DNA of 64,000 bases, taken from NCBI GenBank assembly GCA_028066595.1, contig JALCBJ010000009.1:1-64000 (forward strand), written 5' to 3'. A program made the position numbers and the translations under genes. The stretch's first letter is position 1. The number at the start of each line of letters is the position of its first letter. Positions 1,831 to 36,017 of this stretch are shown here, in pieces. Under the pieces are notes generated by a model, which searched no databases, was not told where the DNA came from, and was given only the letters and a program-made list of their open reading frames with translations. The stretch is from Thermoanaerobaculia bacterium. GTDB taxonomy: Bacteria > Acidobacteriota > Thermoanaerobaculia > Multivoradales > J023.

Positions 1831-3521
1831 GTCGAAACATTACACCCCGAACCGTCTCAGTTTGTTGCATCCTGCTAGCTCTCCTCGCTCTTGCCGCGAT
1901 GCCTCTCACCGCCCAGGAAGACCGTGTGGTGGTCAAGGGCGCCGAGGTAGTTGGCGATTCGGTCGAGCCCCACAGGTTCTACGGTGACGTGCGCGACCTG
2001 CCGACGGTGAACCAATGGGGGCCCGGCGATCCGTACGTGCCGAGCCCGCGGCGTTGGTACGGTCCGGATTTCAGCGTCCCGACCGAGCCCCAACTCGACC
2101 CGCTGGTCACGCGGCAGCGTGGTGTTCCGACGCGCGGCGCGCAGACCTCGATTCTCCAGGGTTTCGAGGGTGTCGACAATGGATTTCTTCCGGATCCGAG
2201 CCTCGATGTCGGTCCGAATCACGTCATTCACGTCGTGAACGCGAGTGCCTTCGCCATCTACGACAAGGCGGGGAACGTCCTCGCTGGCCCTACCGCCCTG
2301 GACTCGCTCGGTACGGGCGCCTGCGCAGCAGGCCAGGGCGATCCGATCGTTCTCTACGACGAGGCCTCCGATCGCTGGTTGATCAGCGAGTTCTCGAGCG
2401 GATTCGGCCAGTGCCTCTACATCTCGATGACCAACGACCCCGTCTCCGGTGGCTGGTGCCAGTACCTCCACCCACCGAGCACCGACTACCAGAAGTACGC
2501 GTTCTGGCCCGGCATGATCGTCGGTACTGCGAACGAGGGCAATTCCCCGCCGGTCTACCTGTTCGACTACGACAACATGATCAACTGCGACACTGCGCGG
2601 CCGGTACAGAAGCTGACCGGGCCCGGCTTGCCAGCTCTGGGATTCGAAGCCTTCACACCCGCTGATCGCGACGGCCCCAATGCGCCGCCTGCAGGCTCAC
2701 CCGCTTTCATGCTTCGCCACCGCGACACCGAACTCGGCAATCAGGGTCCGAGCCTCCCGACGCAGGACATCATCGAGGTCTGGCAGGTGGAGGTCGATTT
2801 CGACAACGCGGCGAATACCGCGCTGACCCAGCTACCCGACATCCTGTTGAGCGAGTTCGACTCGAACCTCTGCCCGCCGCTCAACATTTTCTCGTGTATT
2901 CCCCAGCCGGGCACGAGCACGCGCGTGGACCCATTGCTGGAGGTCGTCATGTACAAGGTGCAGTACCGGAATTTCGGTACGCACGAATCGATGGTCGCCG
3001 TGATGCAGACCGACATCGGCGACTTCCAGGACCACGCGGGTGAGCGGTGGTTCGAGTTGCGGCGAACGCCAGCCGGATCGGGCAATTGGACGCTTCATCA
3101 GGAGGGTACCTACTCACCGGACGCTGACCATCGCTTCATGGGCGCCATCGGTATGGACGGCGATGGCAATATGCTGATGGTCTACGCCTTGTCGAGCTCC
3201 ACGACCAACCCCAGCGTGGCCTTCACTGGCCGTCTCGCCGGCGATCCCCTCGGCACGATGACCGAGCCTGAGCAAATCGTGATCGCCGGCGCCGGCAACA
3301 CCGGCTCCATCCGCTTTGGCGACTACAGCCACTTGAGCATCGACCCGGTGGACGACTGCACCTTCTGGTTCACCGTTCACTACACCGAGGCCGTCGACAA
3401 CTCGGCGGCCGGCATAGGATCCGTCCGCTTCAACTCTTGTTCCGGCGATCCCGGAATGATCTTCAGCGACGGCTTCGAGAGCGGCAACCTGACGGCGTGG
3501 TCAGTGACCGTCGGTAACTGA
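1827..3521 (+). CDS. Large secreted protein of unknown function
   Basis: Exported protein of 564 aa. The signal peptide (about residues 1-31) starts MSRNITPRT and ends near MPLTAQ. The mature part holds a region around residues 105-330 with GFEGVDNGFLPDPSLDVGPN, IYDKAGNVL and ASDRWLISEFS, resembling secreted proteins that carry sequential beta-propeller-like blades. It ends with IFSDGFESGNLTAWS, a short C-terminal tag seen on many secreted proteins of gammaproteobacteria and acidobacteria (family knowledge). No catalytic motif is recognised. It is translationally coupled to the upstream DUF4097-like gene (4-nt overlap), so the pair is likely one envelope or extracellular module. A 9-bp inverted repeat (3536-3544 / 3594-3602) follows the stop, without a clear T tract. 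Confidence 0.6.
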   Translation: MSRNITPRTVSVCCILLALLALAAMPLTAQEDRVVVKGAEVVGDSVEPHRFYGDVRDLPTVNQWGPGDPYVPSPRRWYGPDFSVPTEPQLDPLVTRQRGVPTRGAQTSILQGFEGVDNGFLPDPSLDVGPNHVIHVVNASAFAIYDKAGNVLAGPTALDSLGTGACAAGQGDPIVLYDEASDRWLISEFSSGFGQCLYISMTNDPVSGGWCQYLHPPSTDYQKYAFWPGMIVGTANEGNSPPVYLFDYDNMINCDTARPVQKLTGPGLPALGFEAFTPADRDGPNAPPAGSPAFMLRHRDTELGNQGPSLPTQDIIEVWQVEVDFDNAANTALTQLPDILLSEFDSNLCPPLNIFSCIPQPGTSTRVDPLLEVVMYKVQYRNFGTHESMVAVMQTDIGDFQDHAGERWFELRRTPAGSGNWTLHQEGTYSPDADHRFMGAIGMDGDGNMLMVYALSSSTTNPSVAFTGRLAGDPLGTMTEPEQIVIAGAGNTGSIRFGDYSHLSIDPVDDCTFWFTVHYTEAVDNSAAGIGSVRFNSCSGDPGMIFSDGFESGNLTAWSVTVGN

Positions 3522-3600
3522 GGCGTAGAGGAGAAAGAGCCGTACGGTCTGCCCCCGAGTCATCCGGACGACCGCGATGTTATTCCTTGCCCTTACGGCT

Positions 3601-5088
3601 CTATCCTGATTGACTGCGCTGCGGGTGCTCTGAGTCGGATCTAGTTGGGCACACTCTGGTAGATGACCGTGAGGTCGGAGGATTCTTGTGTTCTCCCAAG
3701 AGGTGCGGAGGGGCTTCGGGTCTGCGGCTCTCTACTTGTCGCTTCATTCTGCCCGCTCGGGAAGTCGGGAGAGAAGCGAGAGGTCGAGTCGACTCGTGTG
3801 CCTCCGGGCTGTGGACAATACGGTCTGCTGCCATGCGGGCCCCGCTAAGATTGCGCGAAGCGGGTCCCACTTCCAACTCGGCCAGAGGGCCCATGACAAA
3901 TAGGCCTTTTCGCCAGCTGAGATGACGATCCACAATAGGAAAGCCGTCTCGAGCAGTTGGCAAGTTCATGCCCGGGATAGCTTCGTCGAGGAACGCGCCG
4001 CCGGGCCGTCTCGATTGGAATCCTGTCGCGAGCACGACGGTGTCTGCCTCTAGGATCTTGACATCCTTGCTGAATTGAAAGACCAAATCTCCAGTGTCAT
4101 CGTACTGGGTCGTATCCAGCTCGAAAGGGTAGAGGTGGAGCTGTAGATTCCGCCGGGTCGGGCCGTGGGAGACGGTATGGACCTTAGCCAACTCCAGGCT
4201 AATGGTCTTGTCTCGTAGGATGGCTTCTTGAAGACGATCTGTGACTTCCGAGGCCAGCGATCCTATGTGGCGCGCTTCCCGGATCATACTCCTCCGCTTG
4301 GCGTAGCATTTCTCTCTATGGAAAGCCTTCAGTAGCGTTGGACCAAGCCAACCCGGGTCACTATCGAAGTCTTGTTTTTTCAGAAAGTGGCGCGATACGA
4401 GGAAGATCCGACGGTTCGGGTTGGCTTCCAGCAAGGCCAGCGCCAGTTGAGCTGCGGAGATCCCGGCGCCGACGATCGCCACGTCATCCGTTTCGGCAAT
4501 CTGTTCGCGTGTGAATTCCGGCGCAAAGATGTGCCAGATGTTCGCTTCGCCCTTCTGGCTCTTGTATTGAACGGCCCATGGCGGCCAGTTGAGATGGTCT
4601 CCTGCGCCTAGGGCAAGGACGATGTTCTTTGCCTCGATCTGCTCGCCAGAATGGGTTTGAACACGGTAGCCATGTTCGAGAGCCTGCAGGGAGCGCGCCT
4701 CGGCTGATCTCCAGAGTCTCATCAGAGCCTTCGCATCGACAAGAGACTGTACGTGATGCGTGAACAGCCGGAGTGACGGGCGAGAATAGGGCGCGATGAA
4801 GTCACGCTCGCGAACTGGGTGCTCTTCTCTCAGCTCGCGCTTTGCAGCCATGAATGCCTTGGTCTCGGCGTGACGCGCCAGCGACAGTGGATCCACGTCG
4901 AGGTTGTGAACTCTCGGGGAGCGCAAATGGAGCATGCCCGTATTGTGAGTGTGGTGCTTCCACCGGGCGAGCGGCTCAGCATGCGGATCCAAGATCGCGA
5001 TCCTCTCGGGGTGGACGCCTCGATCAAGTAGGCGACAGGCCATGTGGATTCCGTGGGGTCCACCTCCGACAATCAGCCAGTCCAACAT
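3601..5088 (-). CDS. FAD/NAD(P)-binding oxidoreductase (monooxygenase-like)
   Basis: Flavoprotein of 495 aa with two dinucleotide-binding folds. The FAD site is at the N-terminus (WLIVGGGPHGIHMA, residues 4-17); the NAD(P) site is near residue 200 (VAIVGAGISAAQLALAL); the ATGF motif (VVLATGF) lies near residue 355. This layout matches class B flavin monooxygenases and the SidA/lysine N-monooxygenase relatives often named FAD/NAD(P)-binding protein. The last 60 or so residues are basic, low-complexity and probably not part of the fold. Its neighbours are unrelated secreted proteins, so the substrate cannot be inferred. It converges on the upstream secreted protein and has about 530 bp of non-coding DNA upstream. 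Confidence 0.7.
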   Translation of the reverse strand: MLDWLIVGGGPHGIHMACRLLDRGVHPERIAILDPHAEPLARWKHHTHNTGMLHLRSPRVHNLDVDPLSLARHAETKAFMAAKRELREEHPVRERDFIAPYSRPSLRLFTHHVQSLVDAKALMRLWRSAEARSLQALEHGYRVQTHSGEQIEAKNIVLALGAGDHLNWPPWAVQYKSQKGEANIWHIFAPEFTREQIAETDDVAIVGAGISAAQLALALLEANPNRRIFLVSRHFLKKQDFDSDPGWLGPTLLKAFHREKCYAKRRSMIREARHIGSLASEVTDRLQEAILRDKTISLELAKVHTVSHGPTRRNLQLHLYPFELDTTQYDDTGDLVFQFSKDVKILEADTVVLATGFQSRRPGGAFLDEAIPGMNLPTARDGFPIVDRHLSWRKGLFVMGPLAELEVGPASRNLSGARMAADRIVHSPEAHESTRPLASLPTSRAGRMKRQVESRRPEAPPHLLGEHKNPPTSRSSTRVCPTRSDSEHPQRSQSG

Positions 5089-5619
5089 GTGTTCTCGTTC
5101 AGTGCGCGCCGTAAAGACGGTGCTCGGGTTGAAGCACGATCATCAACGTGGGGTGGGAAGTAGCCAGGTGGTCGCCGTAGCTAAGGAATGCAAGCAGCTT
5201 GCAAGACGTTATACGCAAGCTGACGGTGAGTGCAAGGCGAGCCTCTCGGTGCCTACGACTCCTGTGGCTTGCATGGCCTCTTCCACATCGCTCGATTCCA
5301 ACTGGCTCGTTGCGCCACGGTGTGCCTAGACGCCAGCCTAGTGTTGGGCCTGGAGCCCGTTTCGTACCGGTAGGTGGATCGAGGGTGGTCAGAGCCTTCG
5401 GACAGTCGCTCACAACGACCCGACCCTTCGATCCAGGCTTCGATACTGAATCGCCTCCGCGACGTCTCCGGCGGCGATGTCGTCGCGCTGGGGGAGGCCG
5501 GCGATGGTCGCATCCAACCTTCAGATATCGTATTATCGCTTGACGAACTTACTGGGCGAGATCCCTTCCTGGGCGTGAGAGGCGCCTGCGGCCGGGTTCG
5601 CCTCAACCGAGGTTGGAAG
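5089..5619. other. Intergenic region between divergent genes
   Basis: I see no convincing gene here. The downstream frame is open from 5374, but its residues before the signal peptide at 5620 do not look like protein. The one structural feature is a perfect 8-bp inverted repeat, CAGCTTGC (5195-5202) and GCAAGCTG (5215-5222), with 12 nt between the arms. It could be a regulator site or a small hairpin. Confidence 0.35.
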
Positions 5620-7272
5620 ATGATGACGGATACGCTCCGCTGTTTGGTCGTGCTCGCGAGCCTGACAGCTCTCTTTCCGAGCGACGCCGACGCTGAAAAC
5701 GGCTCCTGCCGCTGGTCGACAGACTTTTCGGTTTCCGGCCTCGACGGACCGGTTCTCGCCATCGCGTCGGAAGAGACGGGCAGCGGCAGGCGAATCTACG
5801 TTGGTGGCCATTTCGCCGCGGTCGATGGCTACCTGGCCAATCACATTGCGGTTTGGGCGGACGGACGCTGGAGCGTACTGGAGGTTCCCGGAGGCGTCGG
5901 TGTTAACGGGCCCGTGCGGGCTCTGACCTTCTGGGACGATGGAACGGGTCCCGCGCTCTACGTTGGTGGCGACTTCACGTCGGCTGGCGGCGTTGTGGTC
6001 GACAACATCGCGCGCTGGCAGGACGGGGAGTGGTCGGCTCTCGGTTCGGGGTCGGCGCCGGGAGTCTCATCCAACCAGGAGTTCGCCAGCTTTCAGGTTC
6101 AAGACTTACTCCCCTTCGACGATGGAACCGGGTCCGCGCTCTACGTGACTGGGTCCTTCAGCACGGCCGGCGGTAGACCCGCCAACGGCCTTGCCCGATG
6201 GGACGGAACGGCCTGGTCTGCACCACTACTCGATCCATCTGTCCGCGCGGCATCGTACTCTCTGTCCCTATGGGACGACGGGACGGGCGAGTCGCTCTAC
6301 GTCGGCGTTTCGAAACTGGAGGATGGCCGGTTGTTGCCCCTAGGCGGTGTTGACATCTCCGACGTCCTCGACGTAACAGTGTGGAACGACGGTTCAGGTG
6401 AGACGCTCTTCCTCGCGGGAAGTCTCGAGACTCTAGGTCGCGATATCGCGAAATGGACTGGAAGCAAGTGGCAGTTGATTGGCAGAGTCGACCACCACTC
6501 TCACGATGTGATCTGGTCTCTGGAGAGCTTGCAGATTGGCGATGAGAATCTCCTCGTCGCTGGAGGGCGGTTTCAGACCATTGGTGGCGTACCAGCCAGC
6601 CTCATCATGGCATACGACGGCACCGAATGGCGGAATCTCGGCGACCCACCTGCGCAGGCGCTAGAAGGCTTCGAAATACGGACCCTCGCGACGGTCGATA
6701 TCGACGGCCCCAAGCTCGTCGCTGGCGGCGACTTCACCGCCGTCGCCAGCAAGAGGACTACCCATTTCGCGTTGTGGGATGGTTCGAACTGGGAAGCTCC
6801 GACATCTGGCGTGCCGCATCGAGGAGGAATCCTGGGAAGCGTCCACACGATCGCCGAGTGGGACGACGGCACGGGTCTCGCGACGTACGTCGGTGGCTGC
6901 TTCCTCTATGCCAGCGGAGAACGCGCCAATCACATCGCGAAGTGGGAGTCGGGACGCTGGGTCCCGCTACGCGGTCCGGACGGGGTCGGCGTTTCGGACA
7001 CGGTATTCGCGCTCACTGTATGGGACGACGGCACCGGGCCCGCCTTGTATGCAGGCGGTACCTTTGACACAGCGGGTGGGATTGAGGTCAACGGCGTGGC
7101 CCGTTGGAACGGCCGGAGCTGGTCTGCTCTCGAAGGGCCTATGGGAGTCGGGCTGGGAGGCCGAGCGCGGGCTTTGGTCAGTTGGAACGACGGCGCCGGA
7201 TCTGATCTCTATGTGGGCGGCTACTTCTTCACGGCGGGCGCCTTTGTCTCGGTGCCCAAGACCGCTTCCTGA
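5620..7272 (+). CDS. Secreted propeller-like repeat protein, C-terminus lost by frameshift
   Basis: Exported protein, 550 aa as read. A signal peptide (MMTDTLRCLVVLASLTALF) is followed by about ten repeats built on WDDGTGPALYVGGDFTSAGG plus IARWxxGxWSxLGS. This is the pattern of bacterial beta-propeller-like cell-surface proteins of unknown ligand. The frame ends abruptly inside the last repeat (after YVGGYFFTAGA) in an unrelated tail. Sequence homologous to the usual C-terminal module of such proteins resumes in another frame from about 7233. The gene therefore looks frame-shifted or partly deleted, and the protein probably lacks its normal C-terminal domain. The start at 5620 opens the signal peptide; ATG 5623 is equally possible. 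Confidence 0.65.
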   Translation: MMTDTLRCLVVLASLTALFPSDADAENGSCRWSTDFSVSGLDGPVLAIASEETGSGRRIYVGGHFAAVDGYLANHIAVWADGRWSVLEVPGGVGVNGPVRALTFWDDGTGPALYVGGDFTSAGGVVVDNIARWQDGEWSALGSGSAPGVSSNQEFASFQVQDLLPFDDGTGSALYVTGSFSTAGGRPANGLARWDGTAWSAPLLDPSVRAASYSLSLWDDGTGESLYVGVSKLEDGRLLPLGGVDISDVLDVTVWNDGSGETLFLAGSLETLGRDIAKWTGSKWQLIGRVDHHSHDVIWSLESLQIGDENLLVAGGRFQTIGGVPASLIMAYDGTEWRNLGDPPAQALEGFEIRTLATVDIDGPKLVAGGDFTAVASKRTTHFALWDGSNWEAPTSGVPHRGGILGSVHTIAEWDDGTGLATYVGGCFLYASGERANHIAKWESGRWVPLRGPDGVGVSDTVFALTVWDDGTGPALYAGGTFDTAGGIEVNGVARWNGRSWSALEGPMGVGLGGRARALVSWNDGAGSDLYVGGYFFTAGAFVSVPKTAS

Positions 7273-7931
7273 TTGAGATTACATGGCACGACTTTGACGG
7301 CAATGAGGGCAACGGACGTGTCGTGCCGTTCCAGACCGGCGACTCGGGTCTCTACTACTTCTTCGATGCCGATAACTGGGAAATGCTGGTCAAGGTGCTC
7401 GACGCCTGCGGCTTCAACGACCATTTCTGGGTCTTCTCCGCCGCTACCACCAATGTCGAGTACACGCTTACAGTGACCGATACCTTTACCGGCAAGAAGA
7501 AACGGTACTTCAACTCCCTGGGGACGGCGGCGCCAGCCATCACCGACACCTCGGCATTCGCAACGTGCGGCGCACGCGGTTCCGCATCGGCTGTTTTCGC
7601 GCCGGCCTCGGCCTCGTTCCCTTCTCCGGCCGAACAAGGCCTCAGAAGAAGGCGCGAATCGACGCCCGCCACCGAGAAGACGGAGTGCGTGCCTTCCGGG
7701 ACGACGATGTGCTTGGAAGGCGGCCGTTTCGCGTTGGAGATCGACTGGCGCAACTTCATGGACGAGACAGGGCCGGGCCTCGTAGTCCAGGGAACTCCGT
7801 CCGATGACTCCGGACTCTTCCAGTTCTTTGGCGAGAACAACTGGGAGGTGCTGGTCAAGGTGCTGGATGCATGCACTTTCAACGGTCGCTTTTGGCTCTT
7901 TTCAGCTGCTCCCGGTGCTAAACTTTCCTCG
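7206..7931 (+). pseudogene. Out-of-frame remnant with two copies of a C-terminal beta module
   Basis: The frame is open from 7206 but has no plausible start. From about 7242 it reads LCLGAQDRFLIEITW, then DSGLYYFFDADNWEMLVKVL and NDHFWVFSAATT, a nearly complete copy of an about 105-aa module. After a linker a second copy begins (CVPSGTTMCLEGGRF, ALEIDWRNF, NNWEVLVKVLDACTF) and stops at FWLFSAA. There it runs without interruption into the lipoprotein gene at 7932. Most likely the first copy was the C-terminus of the propeller protein at 5620 and was separated by an indel near 7225-7240; the second is a truncated duplicate. A sequencing error could explain the first break but not the truncation of the second copy. 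Confidence 0.6.
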
Positions 7932-8459
7932 ATGCCGAGCCGCCTCATGAACCACATGCCACCGTCAGTACGGAGTCACCCCGGGCCATTGAAACTCGTC
8001 CTTGGGCTAGCCTTCTGGGCCCTCGCGGTCGGTCTTGCGGGATGCTCACCGCCCGGGGCAGAGGAGATCGACAAATCGGAGGTCAGGACCCTGCTCGAAG
8101 CGTATCTTCCGAAGCTGGGGGAGGCCTACGCCCAAGCCGATCCATCCGTCCTCGAACCATGGGCGGTACCCAAAGAAGTCGCACGGATCGAGCTGCGAAT
8201 CGGGGAGTTGGAGGCGAATGGGCAGGTCTACGAACCGGTTTTCCAGAGTCTCGAGGTGGTCAGTATCTCGCCCTGGAACTATTCCAACGCCTTCGTCACC
8301 ACCATTGAAATCTGGGACGTCAGTGCCTACACCATGGGGAGCCGCCGTCTGGTGAATCAGGCGCTCGGTCAGAAGAGCCGGGTCAAGTATCAACTGAAGC
8401 GCCGAGACGATAGCTGGGTCGTTTTGTATCGCGAGCTCGAGCAAACGCTCGAATCCTGA
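7932..8459 (+). CDS. Lipoprotein with IMS-like domain
   Basis: Predicted lipoprotein of 175 aa. A short basic N-region precedes LVLGLAFWALAVGLAGC, with the lipobox LAGC and the acylated cysteine at about residue 38. The rest is a small alpha/beta domain: ALxLLEAYLPKLGEAYAQAD-type helices, then PVFQSLEVVSI, then a strand-rich end with SRVKYQLKRRDDSWVVL. This resembles the IMS / ARC6-like or NTF2-like fold, a weak match by eye. ATG codons at 7932, 7947 and 7956 are possible starts. The frame is continuous with the upstream module remnant, so the native promoter may have been disturbed. It lies 28 bp before der. Confidence 0.6.
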   Translation: MPSRLMNHMPPSVRSHPGPLKLVLGLAFWALAVGLAGCSPPGAEEIDKSEVRTLLEAYLPKLGEAYAQADPSVLEPWAVPKEVARIELRIGELEANGQVYEPVFQSLEVVSISPWNYSNAFVTTIEIWDVSAYTMGSRRLVNQALGQKSRVKYQLKRRDDSWVVLYRELEQTLES

Positions 8460-8487
8460 GCTCGGACCGTTCCTCGGAGGTCCATCC

Positions 8488-9789
8488 GTGAGTCAGCTCC
8501 CCACGGTCGCCATCGTCGGCCGGCCGAACGTCGGGAAGTCCACTCTGTGGAACCGCCTGGCGGGCCGTAAGAAGGCCATCGTGCACGACCAGCCAGGCGT
8601 CACCCGAGATCGGATGGTGGATCGGGTGGAGCTGGAGGAGCGCGCCGTCCACCTCGTCGATACCGGCGGTTTGGTGCCGGGGGACGATCCTCTGGGGCTC
8701 GGCGAACAGGTGCGTTTGGCGGTGGAGGAGTCCGACGTGCTTCTGCTGGTGGTGGACGGCAAGGAAGGCAGGACCGCTGCCGACGAACGGATCTGGCAGG
8801 AGCTGCGGCCCTACGGCAAGCCGACGATCTTGTTGGTGAACAAAGGAGATACCAAGGCGGCCGACGAGAACTTCCACGACTTCTATCGGATGGGAGTCGG
8901 GGAGCAGGTGAAGATGTCCGCTGAGCACGGGCTCGGTCTGCCCGACCTGCACGAGGTGCTCTTGCGCCACCTGCCAGCAGCACAGGACGAGGGCGAGTTG
9001 GACGATGCGCCGGCTCTGGCCGTCGTCGGCCGGCCCAACGTTGGCAAGTCTTCGGTGGTCAACCGATTGGTGGGGGAGTCGAGGGTCCTGGTTTCACCTG
9101 TCGCCGGCACCACGCGGGATCCTATCGACAGTGTGCTCGAAGTCGGAGACAAGCGCTATCGCCTGGTCGACACGGCGGGCATCCGACGACGTAGTCAGGT
9201 GACGGGCTTTGCCGAGGAAATCGCGGTCCTGTTCGCCAAACGTCAGATCGAACGCGCCGACGTCGTGCTGCTGGTGGTCGATGCCTCGCAAGGCATCACC
9301 TCCGGAGACCTGGCCATCGCCGGGGAAGCATGGGATCAAGGTAGAGCGGTCGTGGTGGTCTTGAACAAGTGGGATCTGCTCGATGAGGAGCTACGCGAAG
9401 AGCTAGAGAACGACTGGCCCCGACTCGACACGCTCCTCGGTGCGCCTGCTCGGGTCAACGTTTCGGCGCTCTCCGGCAGGCGACTCGATCGCCTCCTGCC
9501 GGCGGTCGATGCCGCCATCGAACGCAGCCGCCTGGAGCTCTCGACAAGTCAGGTGAACCGGTTCTTCGAGGCAGCAGTGCAGCGGCATCAGCCGCCTCAG
9601 GTGAAAGGCCGACCATGGCGGATCTACTACGCCACGCAAGTCAAGACCGCCCCTCCCACGTTCATGGTATTCGCCAACCGGACCTTGGAACGCTCCGATC
9701 CCTATCGTAGGTATCTCGAGAATCGGTTGCGTGAGGAGCACGACCTCGCCGGAGTGCCAGTGCGGCTGGTCATTCGCCGGCGGACGTAG
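8488..9789 (+). CDS. der: Ribosome biogenesis GTPase Der (EngA)
   Basis: Double-GTPase needed for maturation of the 50S ribosomal subunit, 433 aa, a normal length. The first G domain shows VGRPNVGKSTLWNR, DTGG and NKGD; the second (from about residue 173) shows VGRPNVGKSSVVNR, DTAG and NKWD. The last 80 or so residues form the KH-like domain ending VPVRLVIRRR. The start is GTG at 8488, preceded by a GGAGG box about 8 nt upstream. Identification is secure. No other ribosome-assembly gene is adjacent; the HU/IHF-like gene follows after 327 bp. Confidence 0.97.
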   Translation: MSQLPTVAIVGRPNVGKSTLWNRLAGRKKAIVHDQPGVTRDRMVDRVELEERAVHLVDTGGLVPGDDPLGLGEQVRLAVEESDVLLLVVDGKEGRTAADERIWQELRPYGKPTILLVNKGDTKAADENFHDFYRMGVGEQVKMSAEHGLGLPDLHEVLLRHLPAAQDEGELDDAPALAVVGRPNVGKSSVVNRLVGESRVLVSPVAGTTRDPIDSVLEVGDKRYRLVDTAGIRRRSQVTGFAEEIAVLFAKRQIERADVVLLVVDASQGITSGDLAIAGEAWDQGRAVVVVLNKWDLLDEELREELENDWPRLDTLLGAPARVNVSALSGRRLDRLLPAVDAAIERSRLELSTSQVNRFFEAAVQRHQPPQVKGRPWRIYYATQVKTAPPTFMVFANRTLERSDPYRRYLENRLREEHDLAGVPVRLVIRRRT

Positions 9790-10116
9790 AGGCTAGAGGC
9801 TCGATTTCAGTGGTCTCCTCCTTACGGTTCTCGGCTCGTTGCGCTCGGATTCTGAATCTCGATTCGTTCAGCTCGCGGCCGCGCAGCGGGTGAAGACGAT
9901 CGACGAACAGGCGGTATCGCTGACAACCCGGCAGGCGTCGATCTCTGCTTGTCGAGGCGGCTTTCCATCGCCTATACTGGTCGAACCTTGCAGCTCCGTC
10001 TTCGGCGTCGATCTGATTCGTATCTGCGGTCCGCTCGATGAGGCGACGGCGCTCGTACCCGCCGAGTCCCCTCAACCGCAAAGTCCTGACGCAGGCCGAA
10101 GAATGCCGGAGGAAGA
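9790..10116. other. Intergenic region upstream of the ihfA-like gene
   Basis: No coding region with good start or composition is seen. The stretch contains the putative promoter at 9949-9978 and, at its right end, a GGAGGA ribosome-binding site (10108-10113) for the GTG start at 10117. Confidence 0.4.
9949..9978 (+). promoter_or_regulatory. Putative sigma-70 promoter for ihfA-merR
   Basis: A TTGTCG -35 (9949-9954) and a TATACT -10 (9973-9978) are separated by 18 nt. The predicted transcript would start near 9985 and have a leader of about 130 nt before the GTG start at 10117. Confidence 0.4.
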
Positions 10117-10440
10117 GTGAGCCGGAAGATCCGAAAAGGACGCAGCGGCACCACGAAAGCCGATCTCATCGATGCCGTCTACCGGCGACACGGGGGGATG
10201 ACCAAGGCCGAGGCCGCCGCCGCCGTCGAGACGATCTTCCAGACGGTGAAGTCGACCCTCCAGGACGGCCGTTCGGTGCGTATTCGCAACTTCGGCGCGT
10301 TCGAGGTGACCGAGCGGGAAGGGCGGACTGGAGTCAATCCGGCCAGCGGCGAGAAGATGTATATCCCGCCGCGCACCGGGCTCACCTTCCGACCTTCCCG
10401 CCTCCTCAAGTCCGTGATGGTCGAAGAGGACGACGAGTAG
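10117..10440 (+). CDS. ihfA: HU/IHF family nucleoid DNA-binding protein, IHF alpha-like
   Basis: Small DNA-bending protein of 107 aa. The HU/IHF fold is clear: TTKADLIDAVYRRHGGMTKA (helices 1 and 2), VKSTLQDGRSVRIRNFGAFEV, then the DNA-binding arm with NPASGEKMYIPPR and the closing FRPSRLLK. NPxSGEKxxIPPRxGLxFRPS is closer to IHF alpha than to HU. It is followed by merR and tRNA-Pro, the same order I recall for the ihfA-merR-tRNA-Pro locus in gammaproteobacteria, which supports the IHF-like call. The start is GTG with a strong GGAGGA box. A basic N-terminal extension and an acidic tail make it slightly longer than the family norm (90-100 aa). Confidence 0.85.
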   Translation: MSRKIRKGRSGTTKADLIDAVYRRHGGMTKAEAAAAVETIFQTVKSTLQDGRSVRIRNFGAFEVTEREGRTGVNPASGEKMYIPPRTGLTFRPSRLLKSVMVEEDDE

Positions 10441-10486
10441 TCGGCATTCGCCTCTGCGGATCGGCCACCGGCCCGGTCACGAATCG

Positions 10487-10996
10487 ATGGCCAAGAAGCT
10501 CTTCTACAAGATTGGCGAAGCTTGCAAGAAGGTGGACGTGCAGCCATATGTGCTGCGCTATTGGGAAACCGAGTTCGAGCTTCTGAGTCCCGACAAGTCG
10601 AAATCAGGCCAGCGCGTCTACACCGAGGACGATCTGGCGATGATCCGCAGGATCAAAGAGCTTCTGTACGTCGAGGGGTATACCACTGCAGGTGCCAAGA
10701 ATCGGCTCCGAGCAGAGCTGGAAGAAGGGAAGCTCGGTGCCAAAGTAGCGAGTTCTGGCGGTGCAAAGAACAGCCGCAAGACGGCGGCCGCAAAGAAGGC
10801 CGAGGCGAAGGCGCCGAAGCGTGGTTCCAGGTCGAAGTCCGGAGTCGATCAGGAGCCGCCGAAGGATTCGAAGACGGTCGCAACGAAGCCTTCGAAGGGC
10901 TCGGAGAACGAGCGCGCAGAGCGGTTGGAGGCTGGTCTGCGGGTGGCACTCGATCAGGCACGAGAGATCCTCCAACGCCTGGGCGCCAGGGGCTGA
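10487..10996 (+). CDS. MerR family transcriptional regulator
   Basis: Regulator of 169 aa. Residues 6-75 form the MerR winged helix: YKIGEACKKVDVQPYVLRYW, then GQRVYTEDDLAMIRRIKELL. This belongs to the subfamily that follows ihfA in many genomes and lacks a metal-binding C-terminus. The middle (about residues 85-135) is a lysine/alanine/serine-rich low-complexity linker, and the end is a short helix (LEAGLRVALDQAREILQRL). No metal-binding cysteine array is present, so metal sensing is unlikely. It is probably co-transcribed with the ihfA-like gene 46 bp upstream. Targets unknown. Confidence 0.85.
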   Translation: MAKKLFYKIGEACKKVDVQPYVLRYWETEFELLSPDKSKSGQRVYTEDDLAMIRRIKELLYVEGYTTAGAKNRLRAELEEGKLGAKVASSGGAKNSRKTAAAKKAEAKAPKRGSRSKSGVDQEPPKDSKTVATKPSKGSENERAERLEAGLRVALDQAREILQRLGARG

Positions 10997-11035
10997 ACCT
11001 CAACTGAGAAGGGTGTTTGTGCCCCTCGGAAGGGG

Positions 11036-11064
11036 GTGGACACTTCGATCCCAGCTGCTACAAT
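11036..11064 (+). promoter_or_regulatory. Putative promoter of tRNA-Pro
   Basis: TGGACC (11036-11041, 4 of 6 match to the -35 consensus) and TACAAT (11059-11064) are separated by 17 nt. The tRNA begins 9 nt after the -10 box, the spacing expected for a start just upstream of the tRNA. Confidence 0.45.
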
Positions 11065-11072
11065 TCGCCGGT

Positions 11073-11149
11073 CGGGACGTGGCGCAGTCTGGTAGCGTAC
11101 CTGAATGGGGTTCAGGTGGTCGCGAGTTCGAATCTCGCCGTCCCGACCA
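11073..11149 (+). tRNA. tRNA-Pro (anticodon GGG)
   Basis: A full cloverleaf can be folded from 77 nt. The acceptor stem CGGGACG pairs with CGTCCCG; the D-arm contains GCGCAGTCTGGTAGC; the anticodon stem CCTGA / TCAGG encloses loop ATGGGGT with anticodon GGG; the T-arm is CGCGA GTTCGAATC TCGCC-like. The CCA end is encoded (11147-11149). It follows merR, as in the conserved ihfA-merR-tRNA-Pro arrangement. Confidence 0.97.
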
Positions 11150-11318
11150 TTCCTTATGCCGAAACGCGACGTGCGGCTCAGAGAGCCGGACGCTCTCGTC
11201 TCGGCAGTCATTTGGCCGGCCGAAGCCGCCTCCCGAGGCCAGATCACTCTGAATCAGAGCCACCTTGAAAACTTCAGTGTATTCGCCCCCTGTGGGTGGT
11301 CGCGGAACATGATCTGTC

Positions 11319-11843
11319 ATGAAGCGAAGTGACGCCGATCGTGCCCGAGACGAAGCGCTCGGAATCAGGTCACAGCCCGGTGATCTGAAAGGTCAGCGTT
11401 TCGGAATCGTCGCGGCTCGCTTCCACCACTCCATTGTCGACAAACTCCTCGCCGGCGCTACAACTTGTTTGCGAGGGCACGGAGTAGTGGATGACGACAT
11501 CATGATCCTGCGGGTCCCGGGTGCTTGGGAGATTCCGCTGGCGCTCGATGAGCTGATCGAGGCCCATGTGAGTGATGCTCTGGTAGCGCTCGGGGTCGTA
11601 ATCCGGGGTGAGACCCCTCATTTTGACTATGTGTGCAGCGAGGCCGCCCGCGGCTGCCAGGATGTATCACTTCGGCATCGGATCCCTGTGGGATTTGGTC
11701 TCCTGACGACCGACGACGAAGCGCAGGCCCAGGCACGAGCCGGCGGCAGCGCTGGCAATAAGGGAGCGGAAGCAGCGGCGGCAGCCGTCGAGATGTTGCT
11801 TTTACAACAACAGATCCGTGCTGGCCGGACGGTCGTGCGATGA
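11319..11843 (+). CDS. ribH: 6,7-dimethyl-8-ribityllumazine synthase
   Basis: Penultimate enzyme of riboflavin synthesis: it condenses 5-amino-6-ribitylamino-uracil with 3,4-dihydroxy-2-butanone phosphate. The protein is 174 aa, with GIVAARFHHSIVDKLLAGA (substrate-binding N-terminus), RVPGAWEIPLAL, and GVVIRGETPHFDYVCSEAAR, which holds the catalytic histidine. The end (NKGAEAAAAAVEML) is the usual closing helix. It begins a tightly packed operon: its stop overlaps nusB by 4 nt, the common ribH-nusB pairing. No other riboflavin gene lies in the window, and I see no FMN riboswitch upstream. Confidence 0.97.
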   Translation: MKRSDADRARDEALGIRSQPGDLKGQRFGIVAARFHHSIVDKLLAGATTCLRGHGVVDDDIMILRVPGAWEIPLALDELIEAHVSDALVALGVVIRGETPHFDYVCSEAARGCQDVSLRHRIPVGFGLLTTDDEAQAQARAGGSAGNKGAEAAAAAVEMLLLQQQIRAGRTVVR

Positions 11844-12358
11844 GCAAACGCGGACGGGTGGGTGGCCGGCGACGGAGAGCTCGAGAGATGGCTATCCAGA
11901 TGCTCTACCAGCAGGAGATGGGAGAGTCGACACTCGAGCAGATCTTCGATTCCTTCGATCTTTCCGATTACGTGGAAGAGACCGACGAACGCACGACGGG
12001 TGCCGAATCGGACGAGGTGCGGAACCGCCGGCGTCAGCAAGCAGCCGCATCCTTCGAGTACGCCCGGCGGTTGGTGGAGGGCGCGCAGGTCCATGGCGAG
12101 AGCATCGACTCCCTGATCCGCCGCCATGCCGAGAACTGGCGCCTGGAACGGATGCCGGTGATCGATCGGAACATTCTCCGTCTCGCGTTGTACGAAATGC
12201 TTCACGAAGAGAAGGTACCCAAGGTCGTCATCGTCGACGAAGCCATCGAATTAGCGAAGAAGTTCGGCTCTGAGAACTCCAGTCGCTTTGTCAACGGTCT
12301 CCTGGATGGCGTCCTCAAGTCCGAGATGGTTGCCAACGCGAGGAGTGGTGCGCGGTGA
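11840..12358 (+). CDS. nusB: Transcription antitermination factor NusB
   Basis: RNA-binding antitermination factor that works with NusE (S10) on boxA RNA in rRNA operons. The protein is 172 aa, and all-helical features are visible: RRRRAREMAIQMLYQQE at the N-terminus (arginine-rich, RNA contact) and IDRNILRLALYEMLHEEKVP plus VVIVDEAIELAKKFGSENS in the C-terminal half, the most conserved NusB segments. An insertion of about 20 charged residues (residues 45-70) makes it longer than the E. coli protein (139 aa). The start ATG overlaps the ribH stop (ATGA), and its own stop overlaps the next gene (GTGA). Confidence 0.95.
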   Translation: MSKRGRVGGRRRRAREMAIQMLYQQEMGESTLEQIFDSFDLSDYVEETDERTTGAESDEVRNRRRQQAAASFEYARRLVEGAQVHGESIDSLIRRHAENWRLERMPVIDRNILRLALYEMLHEEKVPKVVIVDEAIELAKKFGSENSSRFVNGLLDGVLKSEMVANARSGAR

Positions 12359-33296: not shown

Positions 33297-36017
33297 ATGA
33301 AGCGTCAACAGCTCCAAGATCGTCACGCAGCGTACGGAAAGCCGCGCAGAGTCTCTGTCCTCCGACGTGCGCTCGCCACATGGATGTTCTGTGTGCTGAG
33401 CATGGCTGTGAGCCAAGCTACGGCACTGGTCTACGCCCCCATTTCCGATGCCGATCTACTTGCCGGCGCAGACCGTGTCGTCGTGGGCGAGGTGGTGGAA
33501 GTGAGACCTGTGACCGCGGAGGGGGCACCGTCCTTGGACTACGTTGTCCGCGTAGTTGACGAATTCAAGAGTTCATCCTCGGCGCCGACCGGGTTCGTCA
33601 CGGTACGGGTACCCGGTGGCCGCCGCGATGACGGCTTGGCCATGTGGATTCCCGGCACACCAAGGCTCGAAGTGGGCGAGCGGTTACTGCTCTTTCTTGC
33701 CGACGTCGCGAGCGATCAGTCTGCGCAGCCGCTGGCTCGTCTCTATCAGCACAGCCTGGGCTTATTCCACGTCGTCGAGGTCGGCGACAAGACACTCGCG
33801 GTCCGGGCGCTGGCGGAGGCTGGGGTCGTCTTTCTCGCGCAGACGGAGCGGCACGCAGCGAAGGGGCTCTCGCTGTCCGTGGAGCACCACGAAGACAGGC
33901 CAAGGGACTTCGAGGGCTTCGTCCACTGGCTGAGAAACGGCGTCCAGGCTGAGTACGAGCTAGATCCCGAGTCGTTGGGCACCGCCTATGCCGACAAGTT
34001 CACGCTGCTCACGTCGCGTACGGGTGCGGAATTCGGAGCGTGTGGCGACAACGGAGGCCGTCCGCTTCGCAGATTTGGCTTCGACGAACCGAATGCCCCG
34101 CCTACGGGCTGGCGTGTCCACTTTGCGGCTCCTCACGGGGCCGTTGCAGCATTTCGCGAGGCCTTGGCGGCCTGGAGTGACGATTTCGCCACGACGGTGC
34201 GGTACACGTTCGAAGGATTGACGTCAGCCAACGGTGTGCTTCGCAACTCGGACGGAGTCAACGCGTTGCGTTTCGACGATCCCTTCGACGACATTCCCGG
34301 AACATTCAATGGGTCGGGGTTGCTGGCGCTCGGCGGTCCGTGGTTTTTCTGCCACCACGAGCAGCACCGAGGCGAAGAGTTCCACGAGATCGTCGAGGGC
34401 GATATCGTGGTCCAGGACGGCGTGCCCGAAGCGTTCGCCGCCACGCCTTGGCCAGAGCGGCTGATGGTGCAGCTCCTGGGCCACGAGCTTGGACACACCC
34501 TTGGGATCGGGCATTCCGAGGAGCCACAGGCTCTCATGCAGGCGGTGTTGCATCTCGATCCGCGAGGCGCAGCGCTGGAGCCCGATGACCTGGCTGCTCT
34601 CGAATATCTCTACGCTGCGGAGGGCGTTGGTGCAACGTCGAATCCGCCTGCACCGGAACGACCACAGGCGGTCACTGGACGCGGGCCCTTCGTTCAGCTC
34701 TCTTGGCCGAAAGTCGTCGGTGCATCCAACTACCGAATCGAGCGCCGCAGGGCCCAGAGCGCCTGGACGCTTCTGACCACCATAGCGGCTTCTGAATTCG
34801 AAGACGTCTATGTCGACCCCCACGTCACGTATGACTACAGGCTCAGATCTCAGAATGCAGCGGGAGCTTCTGGTAGCTCGCCCTACGTCAGGGTGACGGC
34901 GGCCGAGGACGGCCGCCCGGCTTCGCCCAGTCAGTTGCGCGCTTATCCAACCAACCGCACCGGTATGGGTCTGCGTTGGCAGAGCAATTCTTGTGAGGTG
35001 GACTTCTTGCGCCTGGAGGTGGATGCTGGCAATGGCTTCCAGGCTCTGTTCACCACCATCGAAGGAAGCCGAACGGAGCTACTGCTCACGGGATTGCGTA
35101 CCGATTTGGAGTACGGCTTCCGCTTGACTGCCGAGAACCGCTGGGGCGACTCGGCTCCTTCGGAACCAGTCTTGTTCAAGTCAAAGGAGGCCAACGATCT
35201 CTGCTTCTGGCGTCCGAGAGAGAAACATCTCTGTCTCGACGAGCAACGGTTTCGGGTGGCGCTGGAATACCGAGACAACGCGACGATGAGCTGGCGATCC
35301 GCCGTGGGTCGCCCCGAGGACGGGCGCAGGGGCTATTTTTCGTTCTTTGATCCGGAGAACCTGGAGGTCGAGCTGTCCTTCGATCGCGACTCTTCGCAGG
35401 CTCCGATCCTCACCTGGACCAGCTTGACGGATCAGGAATGGCGGGTCGAGATCGTCGATACTCAGACCGACAAGTCATGGACCTTTGCACCTCCTCCGAG
35501 GTTGTGTACTGGATCGCTGTCGCTGGCCGACGCACCAGCTTTCGAACAGCCGGCACCCGAGATGATGGGCGCCGTCGGCGACTGGTGGCTCGCGGAGGTG
35601 ATCGACAATGATCCTGCTATGAAGGCGACATCACCTCAGGTCCCGTGTGGCCGAGCTCCGACTGATCTCTATCTAGCGGACGGTCGATTCCGTGCCCGGG
35701 TCAACTGGTGGGACGACGATGGTGTTCGTCGCCAAGCGCGTGCTCTCGATCTCACCAACGTGGCCGGTGGATTCGAGATGACCACGAACGATGAGCTGGG
35801 TTGGTTGGTCAAGCTGCTGGACGGACGGCAGATGAACGGGAGTTTCTGGCTCTATGCCGGCCCTATGCGGTCCTCCGCGGCGTTTGAGGCGGAATTGGAG
35901 ATCACAGACCTCGAGACGGGCTTGACGCGCATTTACCGGCGCGCGCGGCCTGCTGGAACTGGGCCAGATAGCGGGTTGGCCTGTGCGGTAGGCGATGTCT
36001 CCGCCTTTGGGGATTGA
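33297..36017 (+). CDS. Secreted matrixin-like metalloprotease with Fn3 and C-terminal modules
   Basis: Exported zinc metalloprotease of 906 aa. A signal peptide spans about residues 22-46. A prodomain-like region follows to about 240. The catalytic domain (about 250-440) contains HELGHTLGIGH with zinc ligands His396, His400 and His406. Fibronectin type III-like domains cover about 455-640 (YRIERRRAQSAWTLL, YDYRLRSQNAAGASG). Two divergent copies of the about 105-aa module found in the remnant at 7206-7931 end the protein (HLCLDEQRFRVALEYRD; DLYLADGRFRARVNWWDDDG). ATG 33297 opens the signal peptide. It probably degrades extracellular protein; substrate unknown. It is followed at once by the cobalamin adenosyltransferase gene, possibly with translational coupling. 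Confidence 0.82.
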   Translation: MKRQQLQDRHAAYGKPRRVSVLRRALATWMFCVLSMAVSQATALVYAPISDADLLAGADRVVVGEVVEVRPVTAEGAPSLDYVVRVVDEFKSSSSAPTGFVTVRVPGGRRDDGLAMWIPGTPRLEVGERLLLFLADVASDQSAQPLARLYQHSLGLFHVVEVGDKTLAVRALAEAGVVFLAQTERHAAKGLSLSVEHHEDRPRDFEGFVHWLRNGVQAEYELDPESLGTAYADKFTLLTSRTGAEFGACGDNGGRPLRRFGFDEPNAPPTGWRVHFAAPHGAVAAFREALAAWSDDFATTVRYTFEGLTSANGVLRNSDGVNALRFDDPFDDIPGTFNGSGLLALGGPWFFCHHEQHRGEEFHEIVEGDIVVQDGVPEAFAATPWPERLMVQLLGHELGHTLGIGHSEEPQALMQAVLHLDPRGAALEPDDLAALEYLYAAEGVGATSNPPAPERPQAVTGRGPFVQLSWPKVVGASNYRIERRRAQSAWTLLTTIAASEFEDVYVDPHVTYDYRLRSQNAAGASGSSPYVRVTAAEDGRPASPSQLRAYPTNRTGMGLRWQSNSCEVDFLRLEVDAGNGFQALFTTIEGSRTELLLTGLRTDLEYGFRLTAENRWGDSAPSEPVLFKSKEANDLCFWRPREKHLCLDEQRFRVALEYRDNATMSWRSAVGRPEDGRRGYFSFFDPENLEVELSFDRDSSQAPILTWTSLTDQEWRVEIVDTQTDKSWTFAPPPRLCTGSLSLADAPAFEQPAPEMMGAVGDWWLAEVIDNDPAMKATSPQVPCGRAPTDLYLADGRFRARVNWWDDDGVRRQARALDLTNVAGGFEMTTNDELGWLVKLLDGRQMNGSFWLYAGPMRSSAAFEAELEITDLETGLTRIYRRARPAGTGPDSGLACAVGDVSAFGD

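Follow-up and report, generated by a model that had tools for sequence, protein, structure and literature searches.

A probably inactivated, module-bearing beta-propeller gene beside a conserved lipoprotein gene in a Thermoanaerobaculia genome

A secreted beta-propeller gene that formerly ended in two tandem C-terminal modules has most likely been inactivated, and probably recently, by two losses in the genome of a Thermoanaerobaculia bacterium. The gene lies in a stretch of 64,000 nucleotides from contig JALCBJ010000009.1, referred to here as the window, and all of the parts described below are on the forward strand. The first loss, at about 7240, would have taken away the propeller's end together with the linker behind it and shifted the reading frame, and the second, at about 7910, would have taken the end of module 2, its stop codon and the space ahead of the neighboring lipoprotein gene. 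With a propeller fragment deprived of its tail and modules deprived of a signal peptide and a proper start, the locus would no longer yield a tail-bearing protein.

The propeller ORF extends from 5374 to 7272, with a likely ATG at 5620 and a stop at 7270-7272. The remnant of the secreted beta-propeller gene proper occupies 5620-7240 (540 codons, open), as delimited by its alignment to a paralogue and its match to Pfam PF17164 (DUF5122; E 9.3e-8, 32.6 bits, passing the curated cut-off of 27). The protein is above the curated cut-offs of both DUF5122/Rax2-type beta-propeller models (PF17164 and PF12768), neither of which covers the C-terminal modules. At junction 1 (7240-7242), the blade end YFFTAG is joined with no visible filler to the LCLG of module 1, whose first residues, LCLGAQDRF, are read from 7242 in another frame than the propeller. 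Module 1 (7242-7568) is complete save for its N-terminal Cys lead-in; an inter-module linker, placed by alignment to the paralogue, follows at 7569-7682, and module 2 (7683-7910) matches only profile positions 1-68 of 106 and ends in FWLFSAA. In terms of the predicted fold, the last three strands (87-94, 100-105 and 114-120 of the model) are absent from module 2. The match to the paralogue breaks off at 7909-7910, after FSAA; beyond this point, junction 2 (7910-7911), a stretch leading into TAAACT and the ATG at 7932 replaces the module end. Module 1, the truncated module 2 and the lipoprotein are found in one ORF (7323-8459), whose stop-to-stop frame is open from 7206 and closes with the lipoprotein stop at 8457-8459. 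A preliminary description of this DNA had the propeller ending early, its probable C-terminal module continuing in a different frame from about 7242, and another module copy, truncated at FWLFSAA, leading in frame into a lipoprotein gene; these features and the coordinates given for them were correct. A search of 3500-12000 against Rfam gave a tRNA at 11073-11146 as its sole match.

An intact paralogue is present in the same genome (contig C176, locus L029:4359-7484, minus strand). It encodes 1041 aa in one frame, arranged as a signal-like start (judged by eye), the propeller, a linker with a Cys, module 1, a linker, module 2 and FATCR-stop. The window copy is colinear with it apart from gaps and has the two modules in identical order, with 48% identity over residues 6-512 of the propeller. 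The modules that follow the break are not there by chance, as they match the two modules of the paralogue in order with 73% identity across 218 codons. Measured against this 1041-aa protein, the window gene carries disabling lesions at two sites, a frame change with a loss at about 7240 and a truncation at about 7910. At junction 1 the gene lacks the remainder of its last blade, more of the propeller, the linker and module 1's Cys lead-in. In the paralogue, LCL is separated from the last aligned blade by 167 residues, and a further gap of 54 residues opens in the alignment ahead of that blade; on this comparison the first loss would amount to roughly 170-220 residues of propeller end and linker, a size that is uncertain because the ancestor is inferred from a paralogue only 47-48% identical and the window gene may have been shorter. 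At junction 2, the last 42 residues of module 2 and the stop are missing.

These comparisons bear on the earlier reading of the locus as an indel plus a duplication. A fresh duplication of the module was rejected, because the tandem pair is a usual architecture: the intact paralogue has it, two-module ORFs make up 10 of the 27 apparently intact ones among the 32 looked at in the same genome, and 20/29 ORFs in relatives have two or more modules. A simple indel at about 7230 likewise falls short, and so does a single-base error as the full explanation, since the blade end, more propeller sequence, the linker and the Cys lead-in are also missing; repair of the frame alone would not restore the architecture of the paralogue. 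A lone C-terminal module fragment on contig C170 (at 25014, about 25 kb into the contig; L131:4922-5215, profile positions 42-106 in a 98-aa frame) was considered as the displaced end of module 2 and set aside, being only 73% identical over 81 bp beside the junction. It looks like another remnant.

All 18 near-invariant positions of module 1 are kept, as are all 13 in the remaining part of module 2, and the 540 and 223 codons of the two parts contain no further stop. The retained positions and open codons point to a probably recent event without dating it. We infer that the losses took place in the cell, and their order and age likewise. Of the earlier suggestion of a recently broken secreted-protein locus, the break itself is borne out by the two losses relative to the paralogue, and its recency is probable. 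The pairwise dN/dS between the window copy and the paralogue is about 0.20 for the propeller and about 0.10 for the modules, with synonymous sites near saturation, and mostly reflects the time before the break, so that it is uninformative on relaxed selection. Phase variation, which had also been proposed, found no footing: tandem repeats are absent from 5600-8500, within 40 nt on either side no base run exceeds 3 at junction 1 or 4 at junction 2, and neither junction has the simple repeat or long base run expected of slipped-strand variation.

The lipoprotein gene at 7932-8459, with a lipobox LAGC identified by eye, has matches in 49/59 genomes, its own included. Next downstream at 8488-9789 is a GTPase gene, which from its sequence we take to be der (EngA), a gene essential in the bacteria in which it has been studied. 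The same order was found in relatives: among the best-scoring 19 of the 48 relatives with a lipoprotein match (L010-L028), der directly follows in 18 loci, and the 19th (L022) stops at the contig end. No module or propeller ORF was found in 23 loci of these 19 relatives (flanks mostly of about 1.5 kb, longer in four). A search of assembled contigs with the lipoprotein returned a single locus, in the own-genus MAG Thermoanaerobaculia bacterium Co_bin.310. The protein matches no named family; a weak ARC6-like IMS match (E 0.013) is below the cut-off.

The start of this gene is conserved as well. Among the same best 19 of 48 relatives, TANNNT occurs 6-8 nt before an in-frame start in 18, compared with 0, 2, 2, 0, 0, 3, 1 and 1 of 19 at eight other offsets used as controls; the exception (L027) has TAGACT 13 nt before an ATG. 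The window has the extended -10 type element TGC-TAAACT at 7916-7924, with a 7-nt spacer and the first T 13 nt before ATG 7932, a leaderless layout. In the work of Zheng et al. (2011, PMC3160421), leaderless bacterial genes are recognized by a TANNNT placed about 12 nt ahead of the start codon. The lipoprotein gene, the one gene examined here in this respect, resembles these TA-led genes in that the first T lies 12-14 nt before a start codon in 18/19 relatives. Judging from this conservation, the lipoprotein gene keeps its own -10 type element and start. The second loss would have ended 8 bp short of the hexamer, so that the pair of lipoprotein gene and der could still be transcribed by its own promoter, beginning in leaderless fashion at ATG 7932; the lipoprotein would presumably still be expressed, and selection on the pair may have set the edge of the loss. 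In its disabled frame, accompanied by an intact paralogue in one genome, the locus is like bacterial pseudogenes formed by internal deletion, and its only oddity relative to these is that one edge lies 8 bp away from where the following conserved gene pair has its start element.

Two other origins of the junctions deserve consideration. The contig could be mis-joined at one or both junctions, with the gene intact in the organism; the genome is a draft of 7.5 Mb in 228 contigs, the propeller and module families are repetitive, and another module gene near a contig end, on C203 (L035:8404-9895), is also frameshifted inside module 1. An artefact of this kind is nevertheless quite unlikely, as matches elsewhere in the genome, the locus itself excepted, are only 66-86% identical (40 of 60 first-look candidates scored), so that no long exact repeat to mislead an assembler was found, and as the join at junction 2 leads directly to the conserved -10 type element of the lipoprotein gene, where that gene should begin. 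A truncated propeller-module copy might instead have been inserted beside the lipoprotein gene by recombination and never have been intact there. We regard this as unlikely, since an internal loss at junction 1 would still be needed and no mobile element was noticed on casual inspection of 5088-8459, even though the flanks examined at the lipoprotein loci of the 19 relatives contain no such gene and the own-genus relative G001 carries other ORFs upstream.

Readings in which the broken frames are functional are far less probable. The first listed start of the module frame is the GTG at 7323, which lies within module 1, and no signal peptide was seen; the propeller ends mid-blade and module 2 is short of three strands; and the junctions have neither a tandem repeat nor a base run over 4 near them. 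Although both residual frames are open and well conserved, a functional split into a propeller fragment and a module ORF acting as two proteins, or joined by programmed frameshifting, is accordingly very improbable. The preliminary description had also noted a chimeric frame into the lipoprotein. A single open frame does extend over 7206-8459, but an exported fusion of modules and lipoprotein would have the lipoprotein's signal peptide and lipobox mid-chain, and the gene's own start element, found in 18 of the best 19 of 48 relatives, is kept in the window. A true chimeric lipoprotein is hence the least probable of the alternatives. Under the preferred explanation of two losses in a formerly intact gene, the in-frame join of module 2 to the lipoprotein would be incidental.

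The module itself appears to represent a large, apparently unnamed domain family. Modeling with AlphaFold2 from 70 sequences (mean pLDDT 93.9, pTM 0.87) predicted a domain of about 110 residues that is all-beta, consisting of strands with two short helices. Searches with 70 module members gave a best E of 0.0066 in Pfam and of 0.022 in NCBIfam, the hits being scattered over families with at most 3 members each, and no match above a curated cut-off. With the model, neither the Foldseek search of the PDB nor the structure search of BFVD returned anything at E <= 0.001, and the best VIA hit, at Z 5.4 over 73-74 residues, may reflect no more than a shared arrangement. The top of the VIA list consisted of ssRNA phage coat proteins (Z 5.0-5.4, 71-74 residues), which were not regarded as kin. 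Four matches to solved structures by sequence (best E 0.039) were judged to be chance. The lack of structural matches does not prove a new fold. Literature searches on a Thermoanaerobaculia C-terminal domain in secretion and on a C-terminal sorting signal in Acidobacteriota found nothing, although the domain may still be published; those on an Acidobacteria C-terminal sorting domain and on GFESG gave nothing related by title, and for Thermoanaerobaculia and secretion the searched passages of PMC8528874 contain no occurrence of "C-terminal".

The position of the module in its host proteins was surveyed with a profile built from the paralogue's modules and grown on loci of the same genome. In that genome, 32 ORFs with matches were looked at, being part of 45 matches (C226, for example, was left out), and 27 of them appear to have an undamaged module end. 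Excluded from this count were five: the window locus, the C203 gene with its frameshift (in two pieces), the C170 fragment and L135. The last module stands no more than 10 residues from the C-terminus in 26 of these 27 ORFs, and in the other (L130) it is followed by 25 residues with a DGFESG tail. In relatives, the same holds for 28/29 ORFs with a visible stop, the remaining one having 13 residues. The L135 frame (L135:4520-7399, on C55) has two module matches near the N-terminus of its 960 residues, the second partial, and counts against a strict C-terminal rule. The N-terminal parts of 20 module ORFs were scanned for families and included lactonase, fn3 (with an M12-like peptidase below the cut-off), ricin lectin, trypsin types (two ORFs), cupredoxin with Calx-beta, GDSL lipase (two), penicillin amidase, glucose/sorbosone dehydrogenase with Calx-beta, CarboxypepD_reg, alpha/beta hydrolase and Spond_N (two); six of the 20 (L118, L124, L134, L126, L120 and L129) had no family match. 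The module is thus found at the extreme C-terminus of unrelated, secreted-looking proteins, with signal peptides judged by eye. It matched in 26/30 genomes, the own genome included, at 14 to 67 matches each, and was not found in the four f3 genomes of that search (G008, G016, G023 and G029). Across the phylum, it was present in 34/297 sampled genomes, with at most 15 candidates scored per genome. The window contains a second module-pair protein, at 33297-36014, in which both modules are very divergent.

Homologues of the propeller in relatives have a different ending. They were examined at 11 loci, one ORF each; nine have a visible stop, whereas two are cut off by the end of the locus or contig. 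All nine lack the module and end in a short FxDGFESGxxxAW-type tail, which reads exactly DGFESG in six and DGFETG, DGFEAG or DDFESG in one each, and for which five scanned ends gave no credible Pfam or NCBIfam match. The paralogue in the own genome has two modules in place of this short tail. The occurrence of either tail on propellers of one kind fits a shared role of the two in export or attachment. A protein ending at 3521 in the window finishes in IFSDGFESGNLTAWSVTVGN (3456-3518), the short tail type of the relatives' propeller homologues, and the small two-module ORF of L130 (5682-6671), with its DGFESG tail, has both tails on one protein.

A possible, still doubtful extension of these observations is that the module serves Thermoanaerobaculia (Acidobacteriota) as a hitherto undescribed C-terminal tag for export or surface attachment, one that dozens of unrelated secreted proteins in each genome would carry, that can be exchanged for the short FxDGFESGxxxAW-type tail and that is read by machinery not yet described. 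Sorting domains at protein C-termini, those of type IX secretion among them, are likewise beta domains with which many unrelated secreted-looking proteins end, and the module shares with them its dozens of matches per genome; unlike them, it matches no named sequence family. SprA_N (PF14349), from the core translocon of type IX secretion, was found in 0/30 genomes, but in 0/14 control genomes as well, which makes this result uninformative.

The locus as such is a case of ordinary gene decay, and it carries the warning that 7323-8459 should not be annotated as a single protein. Its useful by-product is the module, the final domain of proteases, lipases, lectins, acylases and propellers in a single bacterial class, which deserves separate study. 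Should it prove to be a tag for sorting or attachment, it would give access to the way in which these bacteria position the enzymes they secrete.
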